Below, one piece after another: positions 2,511 through 61,756 of a stretch of 64,000 nt of DNA. The notes beneath the pieces are model-generated. The model was not told where the DNA came from. It made no database searches and worked only from the letters and a program-made list of their open reading frames with translations. Source of the stretch: Macrotis lagotis (taxonomy: Eukaryota > Chordata > Mammalia > Peramelemorphia > Peramelidae); contig NC_133663.1 in the NCBI RefSeq assembly GCF_037893015.1, positions 140,376,553 through 140,440,552 of the forward strand. The letters run 5' to 3'. A program made the position numbers and the translations under genes. The first letter of the stretch is position 1. Each line of letters begins with the position of its first letter.

Positions 2511-2514
2511 TGAC

Positions 2515-11059: not shown

Positions 11060-11073
11060 AAAAATACAATTAG
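11060..11073 (+). repeat. Target-site duplication, right copy (IDH3A retrocopy)
   Basis: AAAAATACAATTAG, exact match to 9291-9304. L1 ORF1 resumes right after it (ACAAATGCAAAAAGAAAAT). Confidence 0.92.
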
Positions 11074-11790: not shown

Positions 11791-12596
11791 AGCTTAATAG
11801 TAAATTTGGACTTCAAACAGGAGACTGAAGAGACACATGAAAAAGTATAAAAAAGGAGGGAAGTAAAAAAAAGAAAAAAATCTGTTATCTAATAAGGTGA
11901 AACTGGCTATATCTTTATCTGGGAGAAAGACTCTAATAACTCCCAATAATTGTAATTCTATTAGAGAAAATATATTTAGCCAAAAGTGATGGACATTCAT
12001 GGCCTTTGTGTGATTAAGACAGAATGATTTAAAAACAATGCCTCTTGAGAAAGGGGGACAGTAAAGAGATAGGAGGATGGAGGAGACTGAATGGAATGAA
12101 TCTTATAACATTAGGAGGTAAAAAGGTCTTTTTGCAAAAGGTGGGAAGAAGGGAGGAGGTGACAAACACCTGAATCTTTCTTTCTTTCATCAGATTGGCT
12201 TAAAATTAATGTAAATACACTCAATTAAATTGAGAGATTTATCTTACATTTAAAATTATTAAAAGGGGGAAAGAGGCTGGGAGGAAAGGGGGAATCAACA
12301 AAAGGATGTAAAGGAAAAAGCAGCAAAGGAAAGGGGAAATACGGGGAGGTTGGATATATGAGGGCAAACACACGGAAGGTGGTGGTATTCAGAAATAAAA
12401 TGCAGGTGAATATGGATAAAAGGGAAAAAGAGGAAAATGCAAACAGAGGGAATATAACAAGGAGAGTAAAAAAAGGTAATAATTATAACTTTGAATATGA
12501 ATGGGATGAACTCTCCCTTAAAACATAAGTGTATAGCCATTTGGATTAAAAACCAGAATCTTAAGATATGTTACTCACAAGAAAGTCATTCGAAAT

Positions 12597-12617
12597 ATAT
12601 ACATATATATATAAATC

Positions 12618-12653
<36 letters not shown>

Positions 12654-12711
12654 TATATATATATACATATCTATCTATCTATCTATATTACTGCTGAAAG
12701 ACTGGAGCAAT

Positions 12712-12755
<44 letters not shown>

Positions 12756-12936
12756 ATAGATAGAGATAGAGATAGAGGTAGAGATAGAGATAGAGATAGA
12801 GATAGAGATAGATATAGATATAGATATAGATATAGATATAGATATAGATATAGATATAGATATAGATATAGATATAGATATAGATATAGATATAGATATA
12901 GATATAGATATAGATATAGATATAGATATAGATATC
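12597..12936. repeat. Two microsatellites, (TA)n and (GATA/GATATA)n, inside L1 ORF2
   Basis: The first block (about 12597-12686) is TA, CA and CTAT repeats. The second (about 12712-12936) begins as (GATA)n, passes through GAGATA units, and ends as a long uniform (GATATA)n. Between them, about 12687-12711, lies a short L1 remnant (GCTGAAAGACTGGAGCAAT) matching the endonuclease-region text AATGGTTGGAGAAAAATC near 33879. The flanking sequence on both sides is L1 endonuclease region. Confidence 0.93.
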
Positions 12937-15547
12937 TCCTTCAGCTGAAGTTAACAAAGCAGGAGTAGCAATCCTTATCTCAGACAAAGCACCTGCAAAA
13001 AAAGATATCATTAAAAGAGATAAGGAAGGAAATTATGTCCTACTAATAGGTACCATAAACAATTAAGTAATTTCAACACTAAATATGTATGTATCCAATG
13101 GCATTCTTAAAGGAGAATTTGAAGGAGTTAAAGGAAGACATAGGCAGCAAAACTCTACCTGTGGGAGACCTCAATCTTTCAATCTCTGATTAAGACAAAT
13201 CTAACCATAAAATAAACAAGAAAGAAATTAAGGAGGTAAATAGATTGTTAGAAAACCTAGATATGATAGACATATGGAGGAAATTGAATGGGGATAGAAA
13301 GGAATATACTTTTTTCTGCAGTGCATGGCACTTCAAAAATGGGCCATGTACTAGAGCATATAACCTAATAATCAGTTGTAGAAAGGCAGAAATAATGAAT
13401 ACATCTTTCTCAGATCATAATGCAATAAAAGTCACATGCAATATTGGGCCAGAGAGATATAGACCCAAAATTAATTGGAAAATAAGCTAATTTTAAAGGA
13501 GTGGATCAAAAAACAAATTAAAGGATGAATTAATTATTTCATCCTAGATAATGACAATAACGAAAAAATATACCAAAACCTATGGGATATAGTCAAGGAT
13601 GATGACAGGGGATATATCATATCTCTAAATGCTTATATGTATACATTTCTATATATACATTTCTGTATAATGCTAGCAAGTTACAACACAAAGAACTAGA
13701 GAGAGAGAGATCCCCTTCACAGTATCTTCAGACAATGTAAAATGCCTGGGAGTCTACCTTCCAAGGCAGACTCAGAAACATTTTGAAAACAATTATAAAA
13801 CAATTCTCACAAAAATAAAATCAGATTTAAATAACTGGACAAATATCAACTGCTCATGGATAGGTTGAGCAAATATAAAAATCCAAAAAATTGCTTTAAT
13901 GAATTAGAAAAAAATGTAAATAACTTCATATGGAGAAAATAAAGTGGAGAATCTCCAGTGATTTAATTTTAAAAAGTGTAAAAGAAGGTGGCTTAACATT
14001 ACCAGATTTAATATTATATTAATAAAGCATCTGTCATCAAAACTATCTGGTATTAGCCAAGAAAAAGAGTGTGTGGATCAGCGGAATAGACTAGGTGCAA
14101 TAGCAGGAATTAATTATAGTAATCTTATGTTTGATCAACACAAAGAGTCCAGCTATTAGGATAAAATCTATCTCTTTGATAAAAACTGTTGGGAAAACTG
14201 GAAGTTAGTATGGCAGAATCTTGGATTAGACCAACACCTCACACCCTATGCCAATAAATGATTGAAATGTATACAGAAAGCAGACATAAAAAATCAATAT
14301 TATAAGCAAACAAGGAGAACATGGTATATTTTATCTGTCAGATCTATGGAAATGGAAGCACTTTATGGCCAAGGAAGATATGGAGAACATAATTAAGGAT
14401 AAAATAGACTGTTTTGATTACATTAAATTAAAAGGCTTTTGCACTGACAAAACCATTGCAACCAAGATCAAAAGAAATGTAGTAAATTGGAAAACAATTT
14501 ATCACTAGTATTTCTGATAAAGGACTCATTTCTAAAATATAGAGAGAGCTGAGTCAAATAAAAAAAATCAAAGGCAAATCATTCCCCAAGTGATAAATGT
14601 TCAAAGGATATGCAAAGGCAATTCACAGTTAAGGAAATCAAAGATATCCATAGTCATATGAAAAAATTGCTCTAAATCACTAATTATTATAAAAATGCAA
14701 ATTAAAGCATCTATGAGGCATCATCTCCCACCTCTCAGACTGACCAATATGACCAGAATGGAAAATGATCAATGTTGGAAGGGATGTGGGAAATCCGGGA
14801 CATTAATACATTGTTGATGGAGCTGTGAACTCATCCAACTTTTCTGGAGAGAAATTTGGAATTATGCCTAAAAGACAACATAAATGTGCATGTCTTTTGA
14901 TCCAGAAGTACCACTACTGGTTCTATACACTGAAGAGATTATGGAAAAGGATAAAAACACAACTTGTACAAAAATATTCATAGCTGCTCTGTGGTGGCCA
15001 AGATTTGGAAATTGAGTGAATGTCCTTCAATGGAGAATGTCTTAATAAACAGTTGTGCATGATGTATGTGACAGAACAGTATTGTTCTATTGGAAACCAG
15101 GAGGGATCAGAATTCAGGAAAGCATGGAAGAATTTGCATGAACTGATGCTGAGTGAGATGAGCAGAACCAGAACATTGTCCTAACAGCCACAGGGAAGTG
15201 ACGATCAACCTTAATGGACTTGTTCATTCCAACAGGGCAACAACTGGGCACAATTTTGAGTTATCTGTGATGGAGAATGCCATCTGTATCCTGAGAAAGA
15301 ATTGTGGAATTTGAACAAAGATCAAAGACCTTTAATTTCAAAAAGTTATCTTATTGAGTAATTTTACTATATCTCATACTTTATGTTTCTTCCTTAAGGA
15401 TATGGTTTCTCTCTCATCACATTTCACTTGGATCAATGTATATCATGGAAATAATGTAACTACTAATGGACTGCCTTTTGGGGGGTAGAGGAAAGCAAGA
15501 TTGGGGGAAAATTTCTAAAATTCAAAATAAATAAAGTCTTTCCAAAA

Positions 15548-26353: not shown

Positions 26354-28033
26354 AGAATTAGTGTGTGAAAATGAGCAAAAAAGAAAGAAGAATGTGATCT
26401 TAGAAAGCCACTATAGTATTACAGGAAAATCGAGATACCAACTTAGAAGATGAGGTCTAAAGAGCTACAAAGTCACAAATATGAGAATTATAGATTAGAT
26501 TTCCTAGAAAAGTTGAAATGATTTCAAAATCAGTTAAGAAAGAAATAGGAAAAAATGAGAAAAGATATGAGAATGATACAAGAATTATGAAAAGACAACA
26601 ATTTGGTAAAAGATTCACAAAAATACTGAAAAAATGCTCTAAAACATAAAATTAGACAGATGCAAAAAAAGAGATAAAACCTCACTGATAATAATAACTC
26701 CTTAAAAAATAAAATTGACCAAATGAGAAAAAAGGATACAAAAGTTTTCAAAAGAAAATAATGCCTTAAAAATTATAATTGGGCAAGTGGAAGATGACTT
26801 CATGAGACATTAAGAAAAACAAAACAAAGTCAAAAAATGAAAAAATAAAGAAAATGTGAGCTATCTCATTGACAGAAGAACAAACCTGGAAAATAAGTGA
26901 GTATAGAAAAATTGAGAATTGTTGATCTGAAAGATAAGATCAAGAAAAATAGATATTATATTTCAAGAAATTATCAAGAAAAATTATGTCAGTATTGAAA
27001 TAATTCACCAATCACCACCTGAAAGAGAACCTAAAATGAAAACTCCTAGGAATATGGTATTCAAATCTCAGAATTATGAGATCAAACTGAAAATACATCA
27101 AACAGCCAGAAAGAAATCAGGAAAATATAGAGGAGTCACAATCAGTATTACAGAAAATTTAGTGGCTACCATAAAAAAACAGTAGAGGGCTTAATTATAA
27201 CATTTCAGAAGGCAAAAAAACCCTGTTATGACTAGTAAGAAAAAGCCTATATAGCAAAACTGGGTATAATATTTCAATAAAAAATGAATAATTAATGAAA
27301 TAGAGAATTTTCAAGTATCCTTGATGGAAAAAAAAAGATGAATAGAAAATTTGATGTCCAAATATCACCTCAGGAGAAGCATAAAAAGGTATACTTGAAA
27401 AAGAAATAATTAGGAACACAATTAAGTTAAAAAGTTTACATTCATAAATGGGAAGATTTACTGTGTTCTTCCTAAAAGCTTTATCTTTATTATAAGGGTT
27501 AGAAAGTATCAACATTGAAAGAGAATATAAAGAATAAGCTGATTATGTTGGAATAAAGTAAAACATAAAATGAACTGATGATAAAAATGATGTTCTATAA
27601 GAAAGGAGAGGGAAAAATCAAGAAAATTATACTAAAATTAAAGTACAAATGAGTAAAAGCGAGATAATGCACCTTTCAGATCTATGGATAAAGGAAACAT
27701 TTATAGCCAAAAAAAAGAAAAATAAAGAGGTAAATAGAATTAAAACAATTTTGCACAAGCAACATAAATGCAGCCATAATTAAAAGAATAATTGAGACAA
27801 ATTTATAAAAACAAATAAATATATTTATAAAATTTATTAAAATAAGAAATATTTTCCAGTTTCTCAGTGATAAAAGATTATGAATAGGCCATTTTCCTAA
27901 GAAGTCAAAACTATTAGATAGTCCCATGCAAAAATACATTAAATCAATTATTAGGAAATGCAAATTAAAATAACTCTGAGTTATCACTATATATCCATCA
28001 GATTGATAGAAAAGAAAATGATGCCTGCAGGAG

Positions 28034-31346: not shown

Positions 31347-32093
31347 AGACTTCTGGCCAAGATGGCAGAGAGAAGCCAGGCATTGTCCTGGACTCTCTTG
31401 GCTTTCTGTCAGAACTAATATGAATCAAACCCTTTAACAGAATTTAGATCCACAAAACTTAGAGAAAAACAAAGGAGAATATCTACGAATAAGGTCTGTT
31501 TCAGGGGAGTGTGGGTGAGTCAGGGGCAAAGAGCACAGTCAGCACAAGGGCAGTAAAGTGAGGCCTGAGAACAGGTGCAGAAACTTAGGCTATGTGAGTG
31601 GTGAGTGGGAGAATTGCAGAGTGAGGTTAGACATAGATCCATTCCAGTCAGCTTGGCTAGTCTAGAAGACCAGGTCTGTGATCCACACATTTTCAGCAGA
31701 GTCACCTTGATTCCAGTTGGGTCCCTTTCTCCCCCATCACTGTGGGAGAAAGTAACTATTTTTACAACAAGCATAGTAACACCACCACCACCCCCAGGCT
31801 TAGGTATAAGCAGAAGATCACCCTCAGTGCTGAGTGAAGATAAGGTTATTAATTATATGGTCTGAGGGCTCAAGACACATTGTTGAATAATCAGATCCTA
31901 CTGCCCCTCCTCCTCCCCACAGGCCTAAGCATTGGGCCACAAATCAAGGCCACAGACACTCCAGAGAAAGTGTCTAGCACCCCTTACTGGTCAGCCCATT
32001 TGGAGTTACTAAGACTAGTGAGCAAAACCTCTAGGAATTTCAACACCAAAAGACCATAAACCTGCCCATCCCCCAATATAAGATTCTAAGAAA

Positions 32094-33110
32094 ATGAAAA
32101 CGAGCCAATGGGGGATGTCTATAGACAGCTAACTTTAAAAACAAAGATCTTATCTCAGAAAGAAGTAGAACTTCTGAGGAGAATATGAATTGGTCTTGAG
32201 AAAGACTTCCTAGAATAAATCAGGAAGGAGTTTAAAATTATTTGGAAAAATTGGGAAAGGTAACACAAGACAAAATTAACACCTTGCAACATGAAAACAA
32301 ATACTTGGAAAATACAATTGGAGAAATGCAAAAAGGGAAATAATTCTCTTATAACCACAATTGGGCAAATAGAAAATTACAAAAATAGAATTGACCAAAT
32401 GGAACAGGAGTTGCAAAAGGTAAATGAAGAAAATTCTTCTCTAAAAAAAGATTGGAATCTCTGGAAACTAATGACTTCATAGGACAACAAAAATCTGTTA
32501 AACAAAACCAAACCAAAAAGATGAAAAAAATAGAAGAAAATGTAAAATACCTCATCAACTAAACAACTGATCTGGAAAATAGATCCAGAAGAGACAAATT
32601 AAGAATCATTGAGCTTCCTGAAAATATTGAGGTTAAAACACAGCCTGGTTTTAATACTTCAGGATATAGTGAAGAAAAATATACCAGATATCATGGATGC
32701 AGAAGACAAAATAGTTATTGAAAGATTACAGCAATACCCTCCTGAAAAGTATCCCAAAATGAAAACATCAAGAAATATTGTAAACAAATGCCAGAACTAT
32801 AAGATAAAGAGAAAATGGCACAATCAGGCAGAATAAAATAATTTAGATAGCAAAGAGCCACAGTAATCATTTCACAGGACCTGACTGCATCAACATTAAG
32901 GGATTGAAGGGCCTGGAATATGATATTCTGAAGAGCAAGAGAACTTGGAATGCAGCCAAGATTCACTATCTGGCAAAACCAATTCTTCTCCTCCAATGGA
33001 AAAGATGGATATATAATGAGATAAGAGACTTCCAACTTTTCCTTTTGAAAGGACCAGAGCTAAATAGAAAACTTGGACATCAAACAGGAGACTCAAGTAC
33101 ATGGAAAAAC
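32094..33110 (+). pseudogene. L1 ORF1 remnant of the 31347-43340 element
   Basis: ATG at about 32095 (MKTSQWG...). A 63-codon open segment at 32291-32482 holds the coiled coil (QMEQELQKVNEENSSLKKDW), followed by TDLENRSRRDKLRIIELPENIE-type sequence near 32570 and the KYPKMKTSRNIV...QNYKIK C-terminal segment at about 32745-32815, in the frame 32609-32836. Frame changes separate these segments, so no complete ORF1p is encoded. Confidence 0.85.
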
Positions 33111-34162
33111 TAAAAAATGGAAAAGGAAAAAAAAACTTTTTATCCAATAAGTTGTAACTGGCTATATCCCTATTTGGGAGAAAGATTCTCATAACTCTTG
33201 AGAACTGTAATGCTACTAGGGAGAAAATTCTTAGTAGAATTAATATACCCTTATGACTTGTCCATGACTGATAGAATGATTTAAAAACAATTTATACCCC
33301 AACAGGGTGAACAGTAAAGAGACTGGAGGATGGTAGAGATTGAATGGGGTAAATTACATTACATGAAGAGATGAACAGGACCCATTGCAATAGATGGGAA
33401 GACAGGAGGAGGTGAGAACTGCCCGATCCCCAGATTTGACTCAAAGAACAATTAACACATGTAGACTCATTAAGTTAAGGAAAAGTATCTTACCTTTCAA
33501 GTATTAAGAGGGGAAAAGGGAGAGAGAGGAGGAAAAGAGGAACAAATGGAAGAAAGGGAAGGAATAGGGGGTAAAGGGGAAGAAGAAGGAAATTGGAGGG
33601 GAGTTGGATATAAAGAGAAAAACACACTGGAAGTGGTATGCAGAAGCAAAATATTTGGGGATATGGATATGGATAAGTTGAAAAAAGGGGAAAATGCAAA
33701 CAGATTGAAGACAGCATGTAGGGCAATAAAGAGTAATTATAAATTAAAATGTGAATGGGATGAATTATCCCATAAAACATAAGTGAATAGCAAAAATGGA
33801 CTAAACACCAGAATCCTACAATATGCTGCTTACAAGTAACTCATTTGAAGCAGAGAGACACATATAGTGTATAGGTAAATGGTTGGAGAAAAATCAAAAA
33901 TGCTATACCTGAAATGAAAAAGTCAAGAGTAGAAATCCTTCTCAGACAAAGCAGTTTCAGAAATTGATCTCATTAAAAGAGAAAAAGAAGAAAACTATAT
34001 CCTCCTAAAAGGTACCATAGAGAATCAAGCTATCCCAATACTAAATATGTATGCACCAAGTGGTATAGCATCAAAATTCTTAAAGGAAAACCTGAATGAC
34101 TTATAGGAAGACATAGACAGAAAAGGTCTAATGGTGGGGGACCTCAACATCCCTGTCTCAGA

Positions 34163-34176
34163 ATTACATAAATCTA
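34163..34176 (+). repeat. Target-site duplication, left copy (nested L1)
   Basis: ATTACATAAATCTA, which matches 39450-39463 (ATTAGATAAATCTA) at 13 of 14 bases. The outer L1 endonuclease region reads through once both copies are merged. Confidence 0.9.
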
Positions 34177-35167
34177 GCCAAGATGGTGACTTGAAGGCAG
34201 GAATTTCTAGAAACTCCCCCCCACAAAAGCTCCAAAAGTTGCCAAATTATGACTTTAACCAAAATTTAGAGGGACAGAATCCTCAGAAGACTGAGTGATA
34301 CAATTTCCCAGTGCAACACAAGTTAAAAGTTCTGCAGAAAAGATCTATTTCATCAGGACTGAGGGGTTGGAAAGAGCTGCAGCCACAGCACTGCAATAGT
34401 GCTACCACAGGGCAACACTTTCTCAGTGCAGCATCCTGCAACACCACCACAGCTGCAGTACCACAGCAGCACAGCACAGCTCGGCTAGGCACCTGAGTCT
34501 GTGGCAGAGGTGATGGTTTCCAGACCTCTTCATCCAGATATCACTGAGGACAGCGGGAAGGGTTGGTGAGATAGCTCTGCCACACCAATATAGAGAGCTG
34601 ACCTCAGAGAAGCACTGCTGTGAGAACCTGCATCAAGAGTCAGCAGAGTCACCTAGGATGTCCAGAGTTCTTAGCCCACAGACAGTGAGGGTATAAAGGA
34701 GACTGCAGAGGTCTCTCTGCTCTCCCTGCATAAGGACTCTGTTATATGCCCACACACAGATACATGTGGCACTTTGGGCTACCATAACCCCATGGATGAG
34801 CAGGGACTCTCTTCACAACTCCAGGGCAGAGGGGAAGGCCTGTGGTCATTCACATCCCAGAGCACAGGCAAGAGAGCAGTCAGAACCTTTCCTGAGACCT
34901 TGGAGGATTTAAGGTGCCTGTGGATTTTCCCTAAAATCCTCCAAAGCCTTGGAAGTGTGGTAAATCTGTCAAAGGTTGGGAAAATGAACAAAGAATAGAA
35001 AAAAGAAGAATCTTACCTCAACATGGGAGACTAAAATACATACTCAGAATATGACATAGTTGAAGCTTCTGTATCCAAAACCTCTAAAAGAAATAGAAAA
35101 TTGCCCATGCTATGGATAAGCTCAAAAAAGTCTTTGAAAAGCAATTAAGGATTTAGAGGGAAAAAAA

Positions 35168-37527
35168 TTTTTAAAGATTTTACTGTTTTACAATTTTTCT
35201 CCCAATCTTTCCTCCCTCCCCCCCAACAGAAATCAATCTGCCAGTCTTGATTTTGCTTCCATGTTGTATATTCATACAAATTGAGTGTGTTGAAAGAGGA
35301 ATCATATTGTAGGGTTCTGGTTTTTAATCCACTCTGCTATTCGCTTATGTTTTAAGGGAGAGTTCATCCAATTCACATTCAAAGTTATGATTATTAATTC
35401 TTTATTGCCCTCCATGATATCTTCCCTCTGTTTGTATTTTCTCTCTTCCCCCCTTATCTATATTCCCCAGTATTTTGTTTCTGAATATCACCCCCTTCAG
35501 TGTGTTTGACCTCCTATGTCACTCCCTCCCATTTCTTTCCCCTTTCCCTTTTTCCCCTTTCCCTTCCCTTCCTTTTGTTAGTCCTCCTTTTCCTTCCTTC
35601 CCTGCCCTTTCTCTGTCCCCACTTCCCTTTTCCCCTTTTAATAGTTGAATAGTTAGATGTTTTTTTAAGTTAACTAAGTATGTGTTGACTTTAAGCCAAG
35701 TCTGATGAGAACATTCAGGTGTTTCTCATCTCCTCCCTTCTTCCCCCTCTATTATCATAGGTATAAAACGTAATGAGATTTACCCCATTCAATCCCCTCC
35801 CTCCTCCTGTCTCCTTCTTGTCCACCTTTTTAAGGAGGTAGTGTTTTTAAAAATCATTTTATCTGAGTCATAGAAAATTCTGAGTATCTGTCACTTCTAG
35901 CTAAGTATATTTTAATAGAGTTAAATTCTTGAGAGTTATTAGAGTCTTTCTCCCAAATGGGGTTAAAGCCATTTATATCACATTGGATCACAGTCTCATG
36001 GATAGTTCATGAATGTCCTTCACTTCTGCCTAGGTATATTCTCTCTGTTAGAGTTACAATTCTCAAGATTTATGAGAATCTTTTTCCCCATGCTGGGATA
36101 TAGCCAATTTCAACTTGTTGGATAGCAGTTTTTTTCTTTTACCGCCCTCCCTTTTTTTTTTACCATATGTCTCTTGAACCTCCTGTTTGATGTCCAAATT
36201 TTCTATTTAGCTCTGGTCTTTTCATCAAGAATTTTTGGAATTATTTCATTTCCTTAAATGTCCATCTTTTTCCTTGTAAGAGAAGGCTCAGCTTTGTGGG
36301 ATAGTGGATTCCTGCCTCCATTCCAAGCATCCTCGCTCTTTGAAATATCTCATTCCAGGCCCTTCGATCCCTTAATGTTGATGCAGCCAGGTCCTGTGTA
36401 ACCCTTACTGTGGCTCCTTGATATTTAAATTGTTTCTTTCTGGTTGCTTGCAGGATTTTCTCTTTTATTTGATAGTTCTGCAATTTGGCCACAACATTCC
36501 TTGGTGTTTTCATTTTAGGATCTTATTCTGGAGGGGATGAATGTATTCTTTCATTAACTACTTTGCCCTCTGATTCCATGATATTTCCCATCACTAGATC
36601 CTGTAATATTAAGTACAAGATTTTTTTCTCTTCAATGATTTCAGGAAGTCTAGTAATTTTCAGGCTGCCCTTTCTTGACCTATTCTCAAGGTCAGTGGTT
36701 TTGCTGATGAGGTATTTTACATTTTCTTCTATTTTTTGATTTTGTTTTACAATCTCTTGCTGTCTCATGAAGTCATTAGTTTCTGCAGACTACATTTTTT
36801 TTAGGGAGGAGTTTTCTTCATTAACTTTATGCAATTCCTTTTCCAATTGGTCAATTCTACTTTTGAAAGAGCTTTCCATTTGACCAGTTGAGGTTTTGAG
36901 AGAATTGTTTTCTTATTCATCTGCCCAACTGAGGATCGGGGAAATTTATTCTCATTTTGTATTTGTCCAATTTTATTTTCTAAGGATTTGTTTTCTTGAT
37001 GAAAAGTATTTCTCTTGGGTTTCTTCTGTCAAATTTTCCAATTGATTTTTAAACACCTTCCTTATTTCTTTAAGGGAATCTTTCTGTACTGGAGACCAGA
37101 GCATATTCTCCTCAAAGGTTCTAGATCTCTCTGAGTTAAGGTCTTTTCCTTCCAAGAATTTTTCTATGGATCCACTTTTCTGCTGACCCTTCTTCATTTT
37201 GCTAAGACCTTGAGTTGGAGAGTGGCTGGTTCACATTGGTTAGGTGTTGGGATGGCTAGATGCTTTACTGAGTGCAATTTCTCTGGCTGGCCAGTAGGAG
37301 GTGCTGCTTGTTTTCTCTGGCATGTCTGTGACCTCGATTGAGGCATTCTCCTTTAGCCAAAGGTGCAGAAGGCAAATCCTGAGGTAGATGTTCTTTCTCC
37401 TGGCTTTTCTTTCTGGGTTTTGTGGGTCATGTTTCTGTTAAGAGGTTTGCTTCATAAGATAGATGGGCAAAGATCAGGAGACTTTAGAACTGTGCCTGTC
37501 TTCTCTCTGCCATCTTGGCCAGAAGTC
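35168..37527 (-). mobile_element. Internally deleted L1: 5' UTR, ORF1, linker and 3' tail joined at a microhomology
   Basis: Minus strand: the 5' end is at about 37527 (ACTTCTGGCCAAGATGGCAG), 5' UTR to 37200, ORF1 37197 to about 36190, linker, the first codons of ORF2 (near 35340-35310), and then a direct jump at about 35300-35310 to the L1 3' UTR, ending near 35168. Almost all of ORF2 (about 3.6-3.8 kb) is missing. A shared ATATG lies at the junction. Flanking repeats (TTAGAGGGAAAAA at 35153 and TTAGAGGAAAAA at 37528) support one insertion event into the half-L1. Inner-most level of the three-deep nest. Confidence 0.88.
36190..37197 (-). pseudogene. L1 ORF1, near-complete but broken
   Basis: Starts at ATG 37197 (MKKGQQKSGSIEKFLEGKDLNSERSRTFEENM), which is the ORF1 start seen in sister copies. 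The first 74 codons are open. The coiled-coil part follows near 36900-36780, then MRQQEIVKQNQKIEENVKYLISKTTDLENRSRKGSLKITRLPEIIEE (36768-36620) and the C-terminal domain MKTPRNVVAKLQNYQIKEKILQATRKK (36513-36430). Frameshifts separate the three open parts, but they are few, so this copy is among the youngest ORF1s here. Confidence 0.87.
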
Positions 37528-38462
37528 TTAGAGGAAAAATTTGGTAGTCCAAACTGCCACTTGTATCTATACATGTGGGTGATGGAGATAAATCATGAAA
37601 AACAAGTCAACAGCTTGGTGAAGGAAATATAGAAAATACTGAAGAAAATAATATGTTAAAAACCAGTTTAGACCAAATGTAAAAAGAAACATAAATGGCA
37701 AATAAGTAGAAGAATGCCTTAAAAAACAGTATTGGTCAGCTGAAAAAAGGAGAAAACAAAATCTATATGAAGAAAATTAAGACTTCAAATGCAAAGTCAA
37801 TGACTTTGCAAGAAATCAGGAAGAAATAAAGCTATATCAAAAAAAATTAGAAGAAAATGTGAAATATCTCACTGAGAAAACAATTGACCCTGAAAACAGA
37901 TCCAGGATGACCAGGAAAAGAACCTAGATTTCATTTTTCAAGAAATAATACAGCAAAATTGCCCTGAGATCCAAGAAGCAGAGAGTAAAAGAGAAACTGA
38001 GAGAATTCACAGATCACCTCCTGAAAGAGATACCAAAAGAAAACTTTCCAAGAATATTATAGCCAAATTACAAAATTTCCAAGTCAAAGAGAAAATGCTA
38101 AAAGCTTCCAGAAACAAACAGATGAACCACTGTGGCTCTATAGTCAGGATTAGACAGGATCTGGCAGCATCTATATTAAGAGCTTGGAATAGGGTATTCT
38201 GGAAGGCAAAAGATTTTAGTTTGCAACTGAGAATCAATGACCCAGAAAAAACTGACCTTCTCTTTCAGGGGATAAGAGGAGTTTCAATGAAACAGGTGAT
38301 TTTCACACCTTCCTAATGAAACAACCAGAGCTGAACAGAAAGTTTGATCTCCAAGTACAGGACTCAGGTGGATCATAGAGGGGTAGACAAGGAAGCCTAG
38401 TTATTAAGAACTTAATGATGCTGAACTACATATATTCCTGCATGGGAAGAAGATAATTATAA

Positions 38463-38554
38463 CTTACATGAACTTTCTCATTAATAGAACAGTTAAAAGG
38501 AGCATATGTAGACAAGGCACAGGAGGGGGGTGGATATAATGGTACAATATAGTA
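38463..38554 (+). repeat. Linker monomer unit, source-like copy
   Basis: A 92-bp stretch of the half-L1 linker (CTTACATGAACTTTCTCATT ... ATATAGTA). A near copy, about 96% identical over 91 bp, sits at 39898-39988 in the outer L1. See that entry. Confidence 0.9.
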
Positions 38555-38932
38555 AAAAGATGGAGTCAAAGGGTGATAAAGGAAAGTACTGGGGGGGGGT
38601 AGAAAGGAGAGTAAGAAGGGGCTAAGAAAATTCACATGAAAGTCAAGAGGAAGTTTTTACAATGGAGTGGAACAGGGGGAAAGTGAGGGGGAATGAGGGA
38701 GCCTTCATTCTCATCATAAATGGCTCTCTCTGAGGAAATTTCCTATCTGAGGAAATAATATACAAACTTAATAGGGAATAGAAATCTATCTTACCCTAGA
38801 GAAAAATGAGGGAAATAGATGGAATAAGGAGGAATTGAGGGAGGGAAGGGTAGATTGGGTGACAGAAGAGAGGGAAGTTCATGGGAGAGGGTACTCAGAT
38901 ACAACACACTTCTGAACAGGGACAGGATGAAA

Positions 38933-38971
38933 GGAGAGAGAGAACGAGAGAGAGAGAGAGAGAGAGAGAGA
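38933..38971 (+). repeat. (GA)n microsatellite
   Basis: About 38 bp of GA repeats with one GAACGA break, inside the half-L1 3' UTR. Confidence 0.9.
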
Positions 38972-39449
38972 ATAAGTGAGAGTAAGTGAGAGTGGGGAGG
39001 AGTAGAGTGGGGGGAAATACATCTAGTAATGGTGATTTTGGGAAAAATATTGAAGCAACTTCTATAGTGGACTTATGATTAAAAAAAAAAGGTAACTCAT
39101 CCCAGAGACAGAGCCATTGGAATCTGAACCCAACATGAAGTACACCTTGTTTTTCCTTTCTCACTATTCTTGAGGGTTCTGATCTTTTGGTGGGGAGGGG
39201 AGGGTGTTTATGTTTACTCTCACAACAAGATTATTGTAATAGCATAAAATAATCAAAAAAAGAAATAAAATTTTCAACATGGAAATATATTTTGCATGTC
39301 TGTACATATATAATCTATATCAAATTGCTTGCCTTCTTGGGGAGGAGGGATTGTCAGGAAATGAAATAATTTTCAAAATTTAAAAAAAACAAATGTCAAA
39401 ACTTGTTTTTACATAAATCTTAATAAAATCAGTTTTAAAAGATAAAATA

Positions 39450-39463
39450 ATTAGATAAATCTA
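39450..39463 (+). repeat. Target-site duplication, right copy (nested L1)
   Basis: ATTAGATAAATCTA. Partner of 34163-34176. The outer L1 continues with TCCATAAAATAAACAAGAAA. Confidence 0.9.
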
Positions 39464-39897
39464 TCCATAAAATAAACAAGAAAGAAGTTAAGGAGGTAAA
39501 TAGAATGATAGAAAGCCTAGACATGATAGGCCTTCGGAGAAAATTGAATGGGAATCAAAAGGATTAACCTTTTTTTATCTGCAGCATCTACACAAAAACT
39601 AACTATGTACTAATGCATAAAAATCTCATAATCAACTGCAAAAAGAAACACAGAAACAAAGAAACAATGAGTACTTCCTTCTCAGCCATGGTGCAATAAA
39701 AATCATGTGCAATAATGGACCCTGGAGAGATAGACCTAAAACTAATTGGAAAATAAACAGCCTCTTTTAAAAGAATGAGTGGATCAACCAACAAATTATA
39801 GATAGAATTAATGATTTAACTAAACCTAGACAATGACAATAAAGAAGCAATATTCCAAATCATATGGGATACAGCCATGGAATTTATTAGGTCATGG

Positions 39898-39988
39898 CTT
39901 ACATGAACTTTCTCATTTATAGAACAGTTAGAAGGAGCATATGTAGACAAGGCATAGGAGGGGGTGGATATAATGGTACAATATAGTA
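39898..39988 (+). repeat. 91-bp L1 linker monomer inserted in ORF2 of the outer L1
   Basis: This block differs from 38463-38554 by three substitutions and one G in a G run. It does not belong to ORF2, because sister copies (13600-13640) pass directly from the GGGATATAGTC region to AAATGCTTATATG without it. No poly(A) or target-site duplication surrounds it. Confidence 0.85.
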
Positions 39989-40788
39989 CCATTAAATGAT
40001 TGCATGAATAAAATAGAGAAAGAGGAAATTGATCTTAGCATTCAATTAAAAAAAATTAGAGAAAGACCAAATTAAAACTCCCCAATTAAATACCAAATTA
40101 GAAAATTTACAAATTAAAGGAGATATTAATAAACTAGAAATCAAGAAAACTAATGAACTAATAAATAAAACCAAGAGTTGGTTTTATGGAAAAACTAATA
40201 AAATAAATGAACCTTTGGCTAATTGGACTCAAAAAAAGAAAGAAGAAAAACCAAATTACTAATATCATGAATGAAAAAGGTGTACTTAGCACCCATGATG
40301 AGAAAAATAAAGTAATAATTGAGGACTTTTTTGCCCAACTCTGTGCAAATAAATTTGATAATCTAAGTAAAATGGATGAATATTAACAAAAATATAATTG
40401 GCCCAATTTAAAAGAAGTTGAAATTAAATATCGAAATAACCTTATCTCAGAAAAAGAAATTCAACAAGTCATTAATGAATTTCCTAACAAAAAATCTCCA
40501 GGACTTGATGGATTCACAAGTGAATTCTATGAAACATTTAAGGAACAGTTGGTTCCAATTCTATATAAACTCTTGGAAAAATAGGTGAAGACAGAACTCT
40601 GCCTAACTCATTCTATGATAACAATATGGTGCTGATATCTAAACCAATAAAGAGTTAAAACAGAGAACGAAAATAATAGACCATTTTCCATAGTGAATAT
40701 GGATGCAAAAATCTTAAATAAAATCTTAGCAAAGTGATTACAACAAGTTATCATTGTAATAACACAGGATTTATCCCCCAAATGCAGG

Positions 40789-40803
40789 GTTGCTTCAATA
40801 TTT
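40789..40803 (+). repeat. Target-site duplication, left copy (SINE)
   Basis: GTTGCTTCAATATTT, which matches 40955-40969 (GTTGGTTCAATATTT) at 14 of 15 bases. Confidence 0.9.
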
Positions 40804-40954
40804 TTGCTTAGGTGTTGTCAGTGCAAATGGGGTTAACTGGCTTGCCTAAGGCCACAGAGATACACAATTATTAAGTGTCTGAGGCTGAATTTGAATTCAG
40901 GTACTTCTGACTCCAGGGTTGGTGCTCTATCCACTGTGCCACCTAGCATTCCCT
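40804..40954 (-). repeat. CORE-SINE (WSINE1/Mar1-like) in L1 ORF2
   Basis: Minus-strand copy: plus strand TTGCTTAGGTGTTGTCAGTG, GGGGTTAACTGGCTTGCCTA, ending CCACCTAGCATTCCCT. Flanked by a 15-bp direct repeat. Inserted in the RT part of the outer L1. Confidence 0.93.
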
Positions 40955-43340
40955 GTTGGTTCAATATTTGTAAAACTGTCAGTATAATTGACTGTATCAG
41001 TAACAAACCTTATAGAAATCATGTGATTATCTCAGTAAGTATGGAAAAAAGACTTTGAAAACATACAGCAAACAAAACCACTAGAGAAAATAGGCATTAT
41101 TGATTGTTACTTAGAATGATAAACAGTATCTATCAGAAACCATCAATACACCCTTTATGCAATGGGGATAAGCTGGAGGTATTGCCAATAAGATCATGGG
41201 TGAAACAATGTTGTCTGTTATATCCATTACTATTCAATATATTATTAGAAACATTAGCTTTCAGCAATAAGAAAAGAAAAAGAAATTGAAGGAATTAGAA
41301 TTGGAAAGGAAATTACAAAACTCTCACTCTTGTAGATGACATGATTGTAAATCCTAGAGAAACCTAAAAAATCATCTAAAAAACTACTAGAAACAATTAA
41401 CAACTTTAACAAAGTTTCAGGACATAAAATAAACCCACATGAATCCTCAGCATTTCTATATATTACTAGTAAGATGAAGCAGCAAAAGCTAAAAAGAGAA
41501 ATCCCATTTAAATTAACTTCAGGCAGTATAAAAATACATGGGAGTCTACCTGTTAAGGCAGGCTCAACAACTATAAAACACTTTTCATACTAATCAGATC
41601 ATATTTAAATAACTGGACAAAAGTCAATTGCTCATTGTTAGGCCAAGTTAACATAATAAAAATGAAAATTCTTGCTAAATTAAACAACTTACTTAGTGCC
41701 TTCCCAAGCTTCCAAAAATTACGTTAATGAGTTAGAAAAAATGTAACTAAATTAAGACAAAGAAAAAGTCAAGAATATCAAGGGTTTTAATAAAAAAATT
41801 GTGAAAAAAGATGACAGCCTTACTAGATCTAAAATTATATAATAAAGCATCAGTCATAAAAATTGTCTGGTACTTGTTAAGAAGCAGAGTTGGTGAATCA
41901 GTGAAATAGACTAGGTGCAAAAAAGACAGCAGGACATGATTATAGTAATTTGCTGTTTGATAAACCCAGAGTCTAGCATCTGGGGAAAAGAACTCACCTG
42001 GAAATATGTATGACAGAAACTTGAATTTGACCAGTATCTCACACTATCTACCAAGATAGGATCAAAATGAGTGCAGGATTTAGACATAAAAGACACCATT
42101 ATAAGCAATAAAGGAGAATAAGGAATAGTTCAGCTGTCAGATCTATGGCAGTTTATGACCAAGGAAGAGATGGAGAACATAATTTAAAAAACTGGATAAT
42201 TTAATTACATTAAATTAAAAAAGTTTTTGCAAAAACAAATCCACTGCAACCAAGATCAAAATAAATGAAGTAAATTGGCAATTTTTCAACTCTTTTTTCT
42301 GACAAAGGATTCATTTATAAAATATATAGTGAATTGAGTCAAATTTATTTTAAAAAAGCTATGACCCAATTGACAAATGGATAAAGGATGGGCAAAGGCA
42401 ATTTGCAGATGAGGAAGTCAAAGCTATCCATAGTTATATGAAAAATTTCTCTAAATCATTACTGATTTGAGAAATGCAAATTAAAGCATCTCTGAGGTAC
42501 CACCTCATATCTCTAAGATTGGCCAATATGTCCAGAAAGGATAATGACCAATTTTGGAAGGGATGTGAAAAAATCTGGGATACTAATGCATTGTTGGTGG
42601 ACCTGTGAAATAATCCAAACTTTCTGGAGAGCAATTTGGAATTACTCCCAAGGGCATAAAATGTTCATAATCTTTGATCCAAAAATACCAACTACTGGTT
42701 CTATACCCTGAAGAGATCATGAAAAACAGTAAAAACATCACTTGTACAAAAATATGCAAAGCAGCTCTTTTTGTGGTGGCAAAGAATTGGAAATCAAGGG
42801 GATGTCCATCAATTGGGGTAAGGCTGAACAAATTGTGGTATATGGATGCTATGGAACACTATTCTTCTATCAGAAGCCAGGAAGGATGGCATTTCAGAGA
42901 AGCCTGGAAAGACTTGCATCAACTGATGCTGAATGAGATGAGCAAAACTAGAGCAAAATTATACACCATAAGAGTAACATAGATGTGAGGATTAACCGTA
43001 ATGGATTTGCTCATTCCATCAGTGAAATAATCAGGGACAATTTTAGGATATCTGTGATGGAGAATAATATCCATATCCAGAAAAAGAACTGTGATGTTTA
43101 AACAAAAATCAAAGATTTTAATCTTTATTATTTAAAAAAGAGTTTGTCTTTTATACTACATAATTTGGCTATCTCTAATATTTTATTTTTTTCCTCAAAG
43201 ATTTTTTTTTTCTTTCAACACATTCAGTTTTGATCAACACATAGCTAGGAAACAATGTAAAGATTATCAGATTGCCTTCCGTGAGTTGGAAGGGGTAGGG
43301 AAAATGGGTCTTTTTTGTTTTATCAAACAAAATATTTTTC

Positions 43341-49689: not shown

Positions 49690-50035
49690 TTTACTATTTT
49701 TAAATTCCTTGAATGAAATGTAAAAACAAATTTTCACTTTCGTTTTTAAAACTTGGATTTCCAAATTCTTTCCCTTCTTCCCACCCCACACTCCCTCATT
49801 GAGAAAGTGAGTTATTTCATATATGTGAAAAATGTGTATTCATGAAAAACTTTGTCATAATAGTCATGTTGTGAAAGTTATCATACTCCATAAAAAAGAG
49901 AAACCCCAAGAAAAATAAAGTTTAAAAAATGTGTTTCAATTTGTATTAGACACCACCAGTTCTGTTGTGGGAGATGGATAGTTTTCTTTATAAAAAATAC
50001 TTTAGAATTGTTTGGTTTTACATGATTGTTACGCT

Positions 50036-50270
50036 TGAAGTGAAAATTTGATTTTCACATACAGGACTCAATAGGTGCATAAAAAATTAAACAGAAAGGG
50101 AAAGAAAAGTTAGTCAATAAGATTAAACTTTATACATTCCTACAAAGACAGTCAGTGCTTTTTTTTTGACAATTTGTAGAAAATTTTATTCTGGCAGTAC
50201 CTACTTCCCCCTGCTGTGAAGAGGGAATCATGCTTCTTTACCCATTTTCTGAAATCCTAATTCTTCTGTT

Positions 50271-50333
<63 letters not shown>

Positions 50334-50440
50334 CTAAACGTATCTTTTTCTAAGATCAAACATAATCCCCAGCCCACCCCCAAATGTTGAAAAATCTCAT
50401 GAAAAACCAAGTGATAGAAAGAGGGAACAAAAATTGTAAT
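50036..50440. other. Block splitting an L1 3' UTR; includes a plus-strand L1 linker-like piece and a (TA)n tract
   Basis: 50046-50100 (AATTTGATTTTCACATACAG, ACTCAATAGGTGCAT) resembles the end of ORF1 and the linker at 38341-38380 (GTTTGATCTCCAAGTACAGG) on the plus strand, opposite to the host L1. A (TA)n tract lies at 50273-50328. The rest is unassigned. Confidence 0.4.
50273..50328. repeat. (TA)n microsatellite
   Basis: About 56 bp of uninterrupted TA. Confidence 0.95.
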
Positions 50441-50640
50441 TCACTTTGTCTTCACATACAATCAACTCTTTCCCTGGAGTGAACTGCATTCATTATCATA
50501 AGTTCATCAGAGAAGTTGCTTCCATATTTTTTCCCACAGTTACTATTGATGATTGAACTTCTCTCTATCCATTCCTCCCCATGCCCCTTTATTATTTTAT
50601 CTCTCTTTTTTCACTTTATCCCTTCTCACAAGAATTTTAT

Positions 50641-50788
50641 GGGGCAGTCAAGTAGAGCAGCAGATAGAGCACCAGCCCTGGGGTCAGGAGGGCCAGAGCC
50701 CAAATCCCACCCCAGACATTAAAAACCACATAGTCATGGTCCCAAGCAGGTCATTGCATCCCACAACCTTATAACAAAACAAAAAAAG
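50641..50788 (+). repeat. CORE-SINE (variant), embedded in an ORF1-only L1 at a shared site
   Basis: GGGGCAGTCAAGTAGAGCAG, CACCAGCCCTGGGGTCAGGA, then variant text CCCAAATCCCACCCCAGACA and CAAGCAGGTCATTGCATCCC, ending in AACAAAACAAAAAAAG. The same variant blocks and the same surrounding L1 text occur at 61757-61895, so this SINE probably travelled as part of the L1. It is antisense to the L1. Confidence 0.9.
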
Positions 50789-51723
50789 TGTTATGTCTAA
50801 CTAGCTTCTCCCATGATCTTCCCTCTTTTCTATCACCTACTCTCTCCCTCCCCTCCCCTTGTCTGCTTTCTCTCATTCCTTTTCTCTCCTTTTCTCTTCT
50901 AGAGTAGAATAGATTTATATACCCTATTAAGTGTGTGTGTTATTTCCTCTCTGAATCATTTCAATGAGAATGAAGACTCACTCATTATCCCTCATCTTCT
51001 CCCCCTTCCACTCTATCCCAAAAGCTTTTCTTGACTCTTTGACATGAAATACCTTAGCCCCTTCTTTGTCTCCTTTCCCTTACACTCAATGCATTACTTT
51101 TTCACCTCTTGCCTCCAAATTTATAATATATTATACCTTCATGTTCAGCTCTCTACTATGCCTTGTCTAAATATATTCATCCTAACTGCTCTATTAATTG
51201 TGATGGTTCATATTTGTTCTTAGTATCATCTTTACATGGAGGAATACAAGCAGTTCAACATCAGTAATTCATAATAATTTTCCCGTCTCATCCACTCTTT
51301 CTATGCTTCTCCTTAATTTTGAACTTGGAGATCAAATTTTCTGTTCAGTTTTGGTCATTTCAATGGGAAATATGAAATTTCCTTATTTTATTGAATGTCC
51401 ATCTTTCCATTGGAAGAGGCTGCACAGTTCTGCTAAGGTAGTTAATTCTCAGTTGTAATCCAAGCTCTTTTGCTTCCCAGACAAGTCCTATGGGCCCTTT
51501 GTGTGGTCGCTATTAAATCCTGTGTAATTCCAACTGAAGGACAGGACACTTGAATTGTTTCTTTCTGGCAGCTTGTAATATTTTCTCTGTGATTTGGGGG
51601 GTCCTGGAATATGGCTATAATATTTCTAGAGATTGTTTTTTGTATATCTTTCAGGAGGAGATCAGGGGATTCTCTCAATTGCTATTTTACTGTCTGCTTC
51701 TAGGATATCAGGGAATTTTCTTA

Positions 51724-51735
51724 TAGAAATTCTTT
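51724..51735 (+). repeat. Target-site duplication, left copy (SINE)
   Basis: TAGAAATTCTTT, matched by TAGAAATACTTT at 51885-51896 (11 of 12). Confidence 0.8.
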
Positions 51736-51884
51736 CTTTAAGGTTTTTGCAAGGCAAATACAGTTAAGTGGCTTGCCCAAGGCTACACAGCCAGGTACGT
51801 ATTAAATGTCTGAGGCTGGATTTGAACTCAGGTACTACTAACTCCAGGGCTGGTGCTCTATTCACTGCACCACCTAGCAACCCC
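51736..51884 (-). repeat. CORE-SINE (WSINE1/Mar1-like) in L1 ORF1
   Basis: Minus-strand copy: plus strand AGGTTTTTGCAAGGCAAATA, CTACACAGCCAGGTACGTAT, ending CACCTAGCAACCCC. Flanked by a 12-bp direct repeat. Only about 25 bp from the RPS6 retrocopy. Confidence 0.93.
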
Positions 51885-51909
51885 TAGAAATACTTTAAGA
51901 ATGAAATCA

Positions 51910-52724
51910 ATCTCTTTCCCATGACTGGGCTGAGATGGGCAGCTGTGCAAAGATGAAGCTCAACATCTCTTTCCCACTCACTGGCTGTCAGAATGTCATT
52001 GAAGCTGATGATGAGAGATGTGCTTTTATGAGAAATGGATGGCCACTGAAGTTTCTGCTGCTGCTCTGGGTGAAGAATGGAAAGGTTATGTGGTCTAGAT
52101 CAGTGGTGGAAATAACAAACAAGGCTTCCCCATGAAGCAGGGTGTTATGGTTAATGGATATTTCTACCTGTTGCTCATTAAGGGTTACTCTTGCTATCAT
52201 CCTAGAGGAACTGGAGAAAGAAAATGTAAATTTGTTAGCAATTGTATTGTAAATGCTAATGTGAGTGTCCTCAACTTGGTTATCATGAAGAAAGGTGAGA
52301 AAGATATACCAGGACTGACAGATACAACTGTTTTTTGTCATCTGGTGCCCAAAATAGTTATCATAATCTGGAAATATTTCAGTTAACCAAAGAAAATGAT
52401 GTTCACTAGTAGGTAGTGAGAAAACCCCTCAACAAGGAAGGTAAGAAACCAAGGACCAAGGCTCCTAAAGTTCAACATCTTGTGACTCCCCATGTTTTAC
52501 AGCACAAATATAGATGTTTTGCTTTGAAGAAGCAATGAACTCAGAAGAACAAGGGAGAAGCAGAATATGCCAAGGTTTTGGCCAAGAGAATGAAAGAGTC
52601 TAAAAGAAAACATCTAGAACAGATCGCTAAGAGACATCAAATGTCTTCTCTGAGAGCATTCACCTCAAAAATCTGAGTCCAGTCAGAAATACATTTCTAA
52701 AAATGTTTTAGGAATAAATATGTT
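51910..52724 (+). pseudogene. RPS6: RPS6 processed retrocopy (40S ribosomal protein S6)
   Basis: The parent encodes eS6, a small-subunit protein and S6 kinase substrate. The copy begins with a short pyrimidine-rich 5' UTR (CTCTTTCCCATGACTGG, as expected of a TOP mRNA), ATG at 51953 (MKLNISFPLTGCQNVIEADDER), and keeps recognisable blocks: GFPMKQGVM (near 52122), [40 protein letters not shown] (52209-52331), and the tail [11 protein letters not shown]...[21 protein letters not shown] (to 52689). No introns. The early region is frameshifted after DDER (KLRTFYEKRMATEVAADAL equivalent out of frame), several in-frame stops follow near 52385, and the parental stop codon reads TAC. A SINE follows right after AATAAATATG, so no poly(A) run remains. 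More diverged than the IDH3A copy, so older. Confidence 0.95.
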
Positions 52725-52880
52725 TGGGCAGCTAGGTGGTACAGTGGATAGACCACTGGGCCTGGAGTCAGGAGAACCTGAGCTCAAACTGTCTTCAGAC
52801 ACTAAATAATTACCTAGCTCTGTGACCTTGGGCAAGTCACTTAACCCCATTGCCTTGCAAAAACCAAAGGAAAAAAAAAG
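52725..52880 (+). repeat. CORE-SINE (WSINE1/Mar1-like) abutting the RPS6 retrocopy
   Basis: Plus-strand copy GGGCAGCTAGGTGGTACAGT, GGGCCTGGAGTCAGGAGAAC, core TACCTAGCTCTGTGACCTTG and A-rich tail. It starts where the retrocopy poly(A) should be, which suggests the A run served as its target. Confidence 0.93.
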
Positions 52881-53440
52881 AAATTAAGGTTATTTTCTTG
52901 ATATGACTTTCAGTTAGCCAGATAATTTTTAAATTGTCTCTTCCAAAAATGTTTTCCTTTTTGGTTGATTTTTCCAATGAGAAATATCTCATTTTCTTCT
53001 TGTTTTTCATTCTTTTGGCTTTGTGTTATTGTTTCTTGCTTCCTCACAAAGTGATCAGCTCCCTATAGTTACATTCTAAATTTGAAGTATTTGTTTTGTT
53101 CAGAGAGCTTTCTCATTTCATTTTCCATCTGCCCAATTCAACTTTTTAAGGTAGTCTTCTCCTCATTAACTTTGTGGACTCCTTTTTCCATTTGACCTAA
53201 CCTAGTTTTTAAAATATTATTTTCTGCAGTATTTTGACCAAACTGCTGACTTGGTTATCATGATTTTCCTGCATTGCTCTCATTTCTCTTCCAAATTTTG
53301 TCTCTACCTCCCTTATATTGTTTTCAAAATCTTTTAAGAGCTTTTCCATAGCCTGAGACCAACACCTATTTTTCTTGAATGCTTTGGATACAGAAGCTTG
53401 GAATTTGTCATCTTCTGAGTATGTGTTTTGAATTTCCATG
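52880..53440 (-). pseudogene. L1 ORF1 N-terminal part of the ORF1-only element
   Basis: Open for 76 codons from 53439 (MEIQNTYSEDDKFQASVSKAFKKNRCWSQAMEKLLKDFENNIREVETKFGREMRAMQENHDNQ). The heptad-like spacing and EMRAMQENHDNQ point to the N-terminal region and the start of the coiled coil. It continues in other frames toward 52890. The rest of ORF1 lies at 51340-51735, beyond the retrocopy and SINEs (MRESPDLLLKDIQK..., 51678-51442). Confidence 0.8.
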
Positions 53441-53902
53441 GAACCAAAGTAGTTATTGGTAGTCAGGTTCTTCTTTTCTGTTTACTGATTTCCTTAGCCT
53501 ATGCCCTAGTTTTGAGGTGCTTCTCAAGCTTTTGAGTATTATTGGGGCACCCCTGCAAGGACCTCAGTTCCTTCAATGTCTTAGGAGAGATTATGACAGC
53601 TCTCCTGGACTATGCATGATTTCAAACACTTCCCTCTGTCCTGGAGCTGTGAGAATGGTACCTGTTCTTCTCTGGCAATAGAGAGCCCTAGATTTTGACC
53701 AGGGTTTGCATATGATCAAAGCAGCAGAGTCTTGTCCCAGGGATAGAAAAGAGACATTGGAAGTCTCCCCCTACCTGCTTACCTTCTGTGGGCTGAGTGC
53801 TCTGGGAGCAGCTATCCAGCAGCTCTCTACTGGGTGATCTGTGGATCTGATTCTGCTTCTCAGAATCTTGGCTGCACAGAGGACTGAGGATTATATTTTT
53901 AT

Positions 53903-57600: not shown

Positions 57601-57924
57601 GATTTATAGGGTGATACCATAAGCCAATTAGGAAAACAAAGTACAATCTATCTTTAAGATTTGTAGAATGGGGACAAGCTTATGATGAAAGAATTGATAG
57701 AGAAGATGCAAAATTGCAAAATGCAAATTTTCAACTGCACTAAATTAAGAGAATTTTGCATAAATAAAACCATTGCAACCAAGATTAGAAGGAAAGCAGA
57801 AAGACAAGAAACAATTTTCACAGGGAGTGTTTCTGCTAAGGAACTCATTTCTAAAATATATGCTAAATTGCATAAAAATTTTTATATTCAATTTTATATT
57901 CAAATTTATTTTTGCATTATTTCA

Positions 57925-58345
57925 ATAAACTTGTTGTGAAAGTAAACATAAACTCCATGCCCCCTAAAAGAGAGAGAAACCTTAAGAGAAATGAAGTGAA
58001 AGGAAAATAAAAAATATACTTCAGTCTGTATTCAGATACTAACAGTTCTGTTTCTGGAATGGGCTGCATTCATATCATAAATCTATAAAAGAAGTTGCTT
58101 CACTATTTTTTCCTACAGTTGCTATTGTTAACTGTATCACCCTCCATTCTATTCCCACCCATTCCTAGTTAATCTTTTCTCTCTCTACTTTCACCCTGTC
58201 TCTCCTCAGAAGTGTGCTGTGTCTGATTACCCTTTCCTAAGATTTTCCCTCTCTTCTATCACCTAGTCCTTTCCTCCCCTCCCCCTTTCTTCCTTCTTCC
58301 ATCCCTTTCCTTTCATTTTTCCTCTGGGTGAGATGGAGTTCTATA
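57925..58345 (-). mobile_element. Internal L1 3' UTR fragment, antisense, inside L1 ORF2
   Basis: Plus-strand order TTGTTGTGAAAGTAAACATAA, AACAGTTCTGTTTCTGGAAT, GAAGTTGCTTCACTATTTTT, CCATCCCTTTCCTTTC matches 49868-50000 and 50460-50900 in the ORF1-only L1, in the same orientation. It lacks the last ~230 bp of that 3' UTR and any 5' part. No SINE is present at the site where its relatives carry one. Confidence 0.75.
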
Positions 58346-61617: not shown

Positions 61618-61756
61618 GGAATGAATTCTTTATCATTAGTCCATCAGAGAAGTTGCTTTCATATTTTTCCCCACAGTTGCTATTGCTAATTTTGTTTACC
61701 TCCATCCATTCCTCCCCATTTTCATTTATTCTATTGTCTCTCTCCTTTCACATTAT

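Follow-up and report, generated by a model that had tools for sequence, protein, structure and literature searches.

Half-L1 (HAL1) elements encode only the first open reading frame (ORF1) of the L1 retrotransposon, depend on the L1 machinery, have several independent origins in mammals, and carry a poly(A) tail and target-site duplications, as described in the relevant passages of PMC5322556, PMC5753468 and PMC4859970, which cite Bao and Jurka (2010) for HAL1. Here we analyze a 64,000-nucleotide stretch of the Macrotis lagotis genome (contig NC_133663.1, positions 140376553-140440552, within a searched assembly of 3.66 Gb and 607 contigs), hereafter the window, in which positions 34177 to about 39260 are a HAL1-type element inserted in the second open reading frame (ORF2) of an L1. 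At this locus a full L1 holds a half-L1, which in turn holds a second one. The outer half-L1 is interpreted as a copy of a half-L1 family whose most likely origin is a single event, in which an L1 lost the ORF2 lying between its inter-ORF spacer and its 3' untranslated region (UTR), followed by multiplication without ORF2. We assign this reading a probability of roughly 0.9.

The outer family resembles the HAL1 of other mammals in being L1-derived and ORF1-only, with an A-rich tail and target-site duplications, and differs in that its host is a marsupial. The library names HAL1-2a_MD and HAL1-3A_ME occur in passages of PMC3478180 and PMC3229502. The names suggest that marsupial half-L1 families are already catalogued in repeat libraries. 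The suffixes MD and ME we take to stand for Monodelphis domestica and Macropus eugenii. In the literature, as far as its listings and passages show, marsupial HAL1 is present only as names in tables and data sets.

The nested locus

The L1 copies of the window are labelled A, B, C and D, the outer half-L1 F, and the inner one E. The surrounding L1, copy D, spans about 31347-43290 on the plus strand and comprises a 5' UTR, ORF1, spacer, ORF2 and 3' UTR, delimited by matches to other L1s of the window. Its ORF2 is broken off after 34176 and resumes with the right target-site duplication of the outer half-L1. The left duplication (AATTACATAAATCTA, 34162-34176) and the right one (AATTAGATAAATCTA, 39449-39463), both given on the plus strand, are 15 bp long and identical at 14 of 15 positions. 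A preliminary description of this DNA had reported a bracketing duplication of 14 bp (13/14); the bracketing holds, and the length is corrected. The unoccupied site is represented in a paralogous L1 at 8548-15477, where bases ~13193-13207 align with both flanks of the outer element.

The outer half-L1 is read on the plus strand. Its 5' UTR (34177-35111) starts at GCCAAGATGG and falls a few bases short of the family 5' end. ORF1 begins with an ATG at 35112 and, aligned with ORF1 of relatives, runs through 35112-35152 upstream of the inner insertion; the decayed remainder occupies 37540-38379, with a stop at ~38377-38379. Counting the left duplication of the inner element, ORF1 thus corresponds to 35112-35167 plus 37540-38379, split by the inner element, and in this copy has stops in every frame. 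A purine-rich region follows (38380-39045), which is homologous to the L1 inter-ORF spacer and aligns colinearly with that of the L1 found at 7650-9700 of L014, one of the loci fetched from the genome. At the ORF2-deletion junction (39040-39055, placed within ~15 bp) the spacer passes into an L1-type 3' UTR (39046-39260) with an A-rich, polyadenylation-like end.

As proposed in the preliminary description, the 5' UTR, ORF1 and non-coding 3' part are contiguous around the inner insertion and lack ORF2. The part that had been described as 3' UTR does contain an L1 3' UTR, but its first portion is inter-ORF spacer. Autonomous marsupial L1s (copies D, C, A and B, and the L014 element) share with the outer half-L1 the ORF1 family and the order of 5' UTR, ORF1, spacer and 3' UTR. 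They differ in carrying ORF2 sequence (domain PF00078 in copy A, the endonuclease region in L014), whereas comparison of the window sequences finds no ORF2 between spacer and 3' UTR, where a full L1 has it, in either the outer or the inner element.

A family with one ORF2-less junction

The segment 38340-39449 was used as query against the assembly, which returned 11,593 first-look candidates, of which the best 40 were scored. All 40 cover the segment from the end of ORF1 to the 3' part, the 39 other than the window copy at 74-82% identity. The junction point (query ~701-716) is crossed without a large insert in 37 alignments, self included, the shortest of which stops at 720. Three matches halting at query 604-605 were suspected of carrying ORF2; on examination, they continue into the 3' UTR. 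Twenty matches (L009-L028) were fetched with 9.9-kb surroundings and three more (L029-L031) as 2-kb stretches, so that, with the window copy, 24 of the 40 were examined with flanks, and none of these has ORF2 inside the element. The remaining 16 give continuous alignments past the junction, the shortest by a few bases only, with no ORF2-sized gap.

ORF1 is followed by the spacer and then by the 3' UTR in all 20 loci with 9.9-kb surroundings, and the 5' UTR is present in 15. The ORF2 fragments found elsewhere in several of these loci are separate insertions, the nearest of which, a truncated L1 3' end, lies 107 bp downstream of the element in L012. We call the lineage of the outer half-L1 the F type; a second, sister lineage comprises window copies G and H and copies in L009, L011, L012 and L022. 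A junction probe found 26 places (the 20 F-type loci, four further copies within them, G and H), and every one shares the junction. Together with the window copy and L029-L031, the ORF2-less junction is shared by 30 of 30 copies examined, namely 24 scored matches and six sister-lineage copies. Lack of ORF2 is hence a property of the family. The preliminary description had suggested a marsupial HAL1-like family and named recurrence of the junction as the check; the junction is not singular, none of the 30 copies carries ORF2 there, and the copies form a single clade (support 100).

Copies H (49690-53892, with SINE, i.e., short interspersed element, insertions) and G (61618-64000, cut by the window end and a SINE) both lie on the minus strand, with limits taken from the preliminary description. 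They had been said to share the layout of the outer element, and do so: each has the same ORF1, spacer and junction, and matches the 3' half of its 5' UTR. A further half-L1 3' fragment lies inside another L1 at 57906-58344 on the minus strand, and matches 38778-39252 at 69%.

The copies also share their ends. The family 5' end GCCAAGATGG is reached in nine of the 20 loci, seven of which extend about 9 bases further with a sequence like GGGGGYRGA. A common A-rich, AATAAA-like 3' end is found, exactly or within a few bases, in 19 of the 20, L022 being unclear; beyond it, the 20 loci enter mutually different, unrelated sequences. Among nine full-length relatives tested, target-site duplications stand out in L016 (13/13), L018 (14/15) and L015 (9/9), which were matched by 2, 1 and 1 of 60 random placements, respectively. 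In the 3' UTR, the copies differ from the family majority by 6-10% (Kimura two-parameter distance), and the window copy by 13%.

Origin and lineages

The clade mentioned above comprises, in the ORF1 tree, every half-L1 copy of the outer kind, and the L1 of L014 adjoins it (support 100). That L1, with its colinear spacer, continues into sequence of the ORF2 endonuclease region, which runs up to near the end of the fetched stretch. The 3' part of the outer half-L1 resembles the 3' UTR of older L1s in L013 and L014. Given one clade, a shared junction and an adjoining L1 associated with ORF2, a single loss of ORF2, preceding the diversification of the HAL1 clade, is most likely.

The second lineage has supports of 93 and 98 in two ORF1 trees. 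One of its copies cleanly interrupts an F-type ORF1 in L012 (1450-3434), and another lies between remnants of an F-type copy in L022 (2700-3958). Because second-lineage copies are found inside F-type copies, with L012 as the one clean case, the results suggest that the activity of the two lineages overlapped. An earlier labelling of the second lineage as "old" was dropped on the same grounds.

The outer half-L1 would have been transcribed from its own 5' UTR, and ORF1 protein (ORF1p) would have been translated from this RNA, presumably binding it in cis. Since a target-site duplication is present and ORF2 is absent, the endonuclease and reverse transcriptase were probably supplied in trans by ORF2p of full L1s. 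Target-primed reverse transcription would then have inserted new copies elsewhere, flanked by short duplications that are 15 bp long for the window copy. The window copy was later struck by a second, unrelated half-L1 (35168-37527).

Several points weigh against this account. The query spans the junction, which favors ORF2-less copies among the scored matches, and the best 40 of 11,593 candidates are a small, best-scoring sample, in which an ORF2-bearing copy of equal identity would fall near the bottom. The numbers of copies with and without ORF2 are accordingly those of a sample of the 40 best matches rather than a full genome count. Two further ORF1 copies, J (26705-27152 of the window) and one in L011 (L011q), fall outside the clade. 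Six of the nine full-length relatives have no duplication above background, with 5-18 of 60 placements as good in what is a crude test. Finally, promoter use, the trans supply by L1 and the cis action of ORF1p are inferred.

The tail before the right duplication

The preliminary description placed the end of the element at 39449. However, relatives end at a point matching about 39250-39277 (inexact, since the region is A-rich), and the last ~188 bp (39261-39448, plus strand) are another L1-type 3' end, similar to those of copy H and of older L1s. This piece is either a separate insertion in the A-rich tail or was carried along with the element. With 39150-39449 as query, the window alone among the best 40 matches joins both parts; 38 have the family end only (query up to 135), and one has the tail only. 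The latter (L033, 1501-1688) lies in unrelated sequence, and its start differs by no more than a few bases from that in the window. As the join is unseen in the other 39 best matches, the tail was rejected as a feature of the family.

The tail could still belong to this one copy, for instance through RNA read-through into a downstream L1 end, given that the outer target-site duplication brackets it and that copy H, too, finishes with a homologous L1-type 3' end. Against this, the joined form occurs in none of the other 39 matches, the piece stands alone at L033, and the A-rich text on both of its sides could, by eye, be a target-site duplication of its own. We therefore regard read-through as rather doubtful, a separate insertion into the A-rich end being likelier. 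The solitary L1-type 3' end at L033 is perhaps a short repeat of its own.

Within ORF2 of the surrounding L1, at 39898-39988, about 92 bp match 38463-38554 in the outer half-L1 at 95.7% identity. This stretch lies 1.4 kb from its match in the outer element and displaces about 10-17 bp; its identity to copies in the fetched loci is at most 91%. It is probably a local templated insertion.

Selection on ORF1

Fragments of relatives were compared with Pfam, where L024 matched PF02994 (5.2e-10), and L028 matched PF17490 (1.1e-6) and PF02994 (1.3e-4). Fragments of the same two relatives matched the solved ORF1p structures 2yko, 2w7a and 2ldy, while an N-terminal fragment of L019 matched no L1 family in Pfam and gave only weak coiled-coil matches. 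The majority frame over 21 copies is open for 312 codons save one, where TGA is commonest, presumably a decayed CGA.

Differences within a family are mostly acquired after insertion and are expected to be neutral, while those between lineages add the changes of active elements. Net divergence of ORF1 was thus taken between the 15 F-type rows, out of 21, that exceed 600 bases and five of seven second-lineage rows; the two left out are the short oL022b, and oL012a, which the tree places in the F type. With the transition bias kappa set at 3, this yielded a dN of 0.048, a dS of 0.143, and a ratio of 0.34 (95% interval 0.19-0.62, 200 codon bootstraps). With kappa at 1, the ratio is 0.20 (0.11-0.37). 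The measured transition bias is about 3.1, in line with the former setting. The ratio stays within 0.27-0.41 on omitting any one second-lineage row or setting kappa at 2 or 4, and a run with oL012a in the second-lineage group went in the same direction. Within the F type, ORF1 gives 1.03 (kappa 3) or 0.70 (kappa 1), and the control, the 3' UTR of 21 and 5 rows treated as codons in three frames, yields values of 1.13, 1.43 and 0.98.

On these values, purifying selection appears to have acted on ORF1 during the phase in which the elements were without ORF2, to which it is assigned because both lineages have the ORF2-less junction. The earlier proposal that ORF1p alone was kept as cargo is in this way supported by the comparison of synonymous and non-synonymous change. 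The simplest reading, one step further along the same line of reasoning, would be that ORF1p aids the very RNA from which it is translated. Telling the other way, a within-family test of site patterns is only suggestive (p = 0.07), and the variants shared in it include seven nonsense changes, which means many of the shared variants are recurrent mutations rather than lineage markers.

It may be argued that ORF1 is a passive passenger whose low dN/dS was inherited from the L1 ancestor. Evolution after insertion is neutral (1.03), so the signal comes only from the between-lineage branches, as estimated from 15 and 5 rows, which would suit this explanation. Yet the two compared lineages share the ORF2-less junction, and their clade excludes the ORF2-associated L1; hence the compared branches were most likely ORF2-less throughout, and we judge a passenger ORF1 improbable.

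The inner half-L1

The insertion inside the outer ORF1 had been described as an L1. It is itself a second half-L1, with an ORF2-deletion junction of its own. Element E (35168-37527, minus strand) comprises a 5' UTR, ORF1 (~37030-36200), the inter-ORF spacer and, of an L1 3' UTR, the final ~135 bp: it matches the L1 5' UTR, ORF1 and spacer, and then directly an L1 3' UTR at 2338-2488. Its apparent flanking duplications, on the plus strand, are TTAGAGGGAAAAAAA on the left (35153-35167) and TTAGAGGAAAAA on the right (37528-37539). The duplication, TTAGAGG(G)AAAAA, was read by eye from the flanks and from uninterrupted relatives. Fragments of element E give weak matches to PF17490 and PF02994, under the curated cut-offs, or none.

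The inner junction lies at 35297-35307 on the minus strand, with the break at 35303/35302 and a 5-bp microhomology, ATATG, at 35303-35307. Inspected by eye, no placement inside the microhomology gives GT-AG. As the L1 sides share ATATG and no GT-AG placement is found, ORF2 was more likely lost by a jump or deletion at the microhomology than by splicing, which was ruled out as the origin of the inner element.

A second copy with this junction was found on the minus strand of L014 (about 948-3943, junction at 1081-1117), with two differences from the window in the 37 bases of the junction and 84% identity to element E over 2,275 aligned bases. These are the two occurrences of the inner-type junction in the window and fetched loci, three more matches being plain L1 3' UTRs. 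In the ORF1 tree, E and the L014 copy pair (support 100) and fall among the L1s, joining copy C (94), far from the outer family. They have the same order of 5' UTR, ORF1, spacer and 3' UTR as the outer family, with an independent origin and a different junction. Element E is therefore an independent half-L1 of another, L1-derived lineage. In L014, the inner-type half-L1 (948-3943) directly abuts the ORF1 of an F-type half-L1 (3946-5246), as in the window.

Both families have lost ORF2 from near its start to the 3' UTR, as would be expected if half-L1s in general were born by splicing of L1 RNA, with ORF2 as the intron, followed by retrotransposition. The lack of GT-AG at the inner junction argues against such an origin, and the outer junction is too diverged for exact placement; on this evidence, splicing seems quite unlikely. 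ORF2 loss occurred at least twice, with different junctions, in the outer and inner elements, as might be expected if each ORF2-less copy were a full L1 that had undergone its own internal deletion, during insertion or later, but for the copies examined we reject this as highly implausible, since the 30 outer-family copies share one junction, mostly the 3' end and in many cases the 5' end, and form a single clade.

Other sequences in the window

At 91-2171 lie the two longest open reading frames of the window, of 251 and 392 codons, both belonging to ORF2 of a single L1. The 251-codon frame, in copy A, has the reverse transcriptase domain PF00078; the 392-codon frame has no Pfam match. Inside the L1 at 8548-15477, positions 9456-10237 hold pseudogene-like frames of the alpha subunit of mitochondrial NAD isocitrate dehydrogenase, the first of which matched solved structures.

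Discussion

The outer element belongs to a genuine HAL1 family. Half-L1s are an already known kind of element, and what is most informative here is the second half-L1 nested within the first, together with the measurement of selection on ORF1.

A wider reading, for which we consider the chances evenly balanced, is that the ORF1-only elements are a long-lived, diversifying clade: two ORF2-less lineages with overlapping activity would have kept ORF1 under purifying selection while using a reverse transcriptase from elsewhere. Repeated loss of ORF2, in at least one case at a microhomology, would moreover have kept giving rise to new elements of this kind. This reading is weakened by the nesting being clean at L012 only.

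With half-L1s, nature supplies an experiment in which the two L1 proteins are uncoupled. Selection that keeps ORF1 in elements without ORF2 would mean that ORF1p must aid its own RNA, which bears on the question of cis-preference. Given a genome with many datable half-L1 copies, the strength of the selection on ORF1 can be measured. Should the reading of a long-lived clade be true, these marsupial elements would be natural evidence for ORF1p acting on its own RNA, despite ORF2p being supplied in trans.

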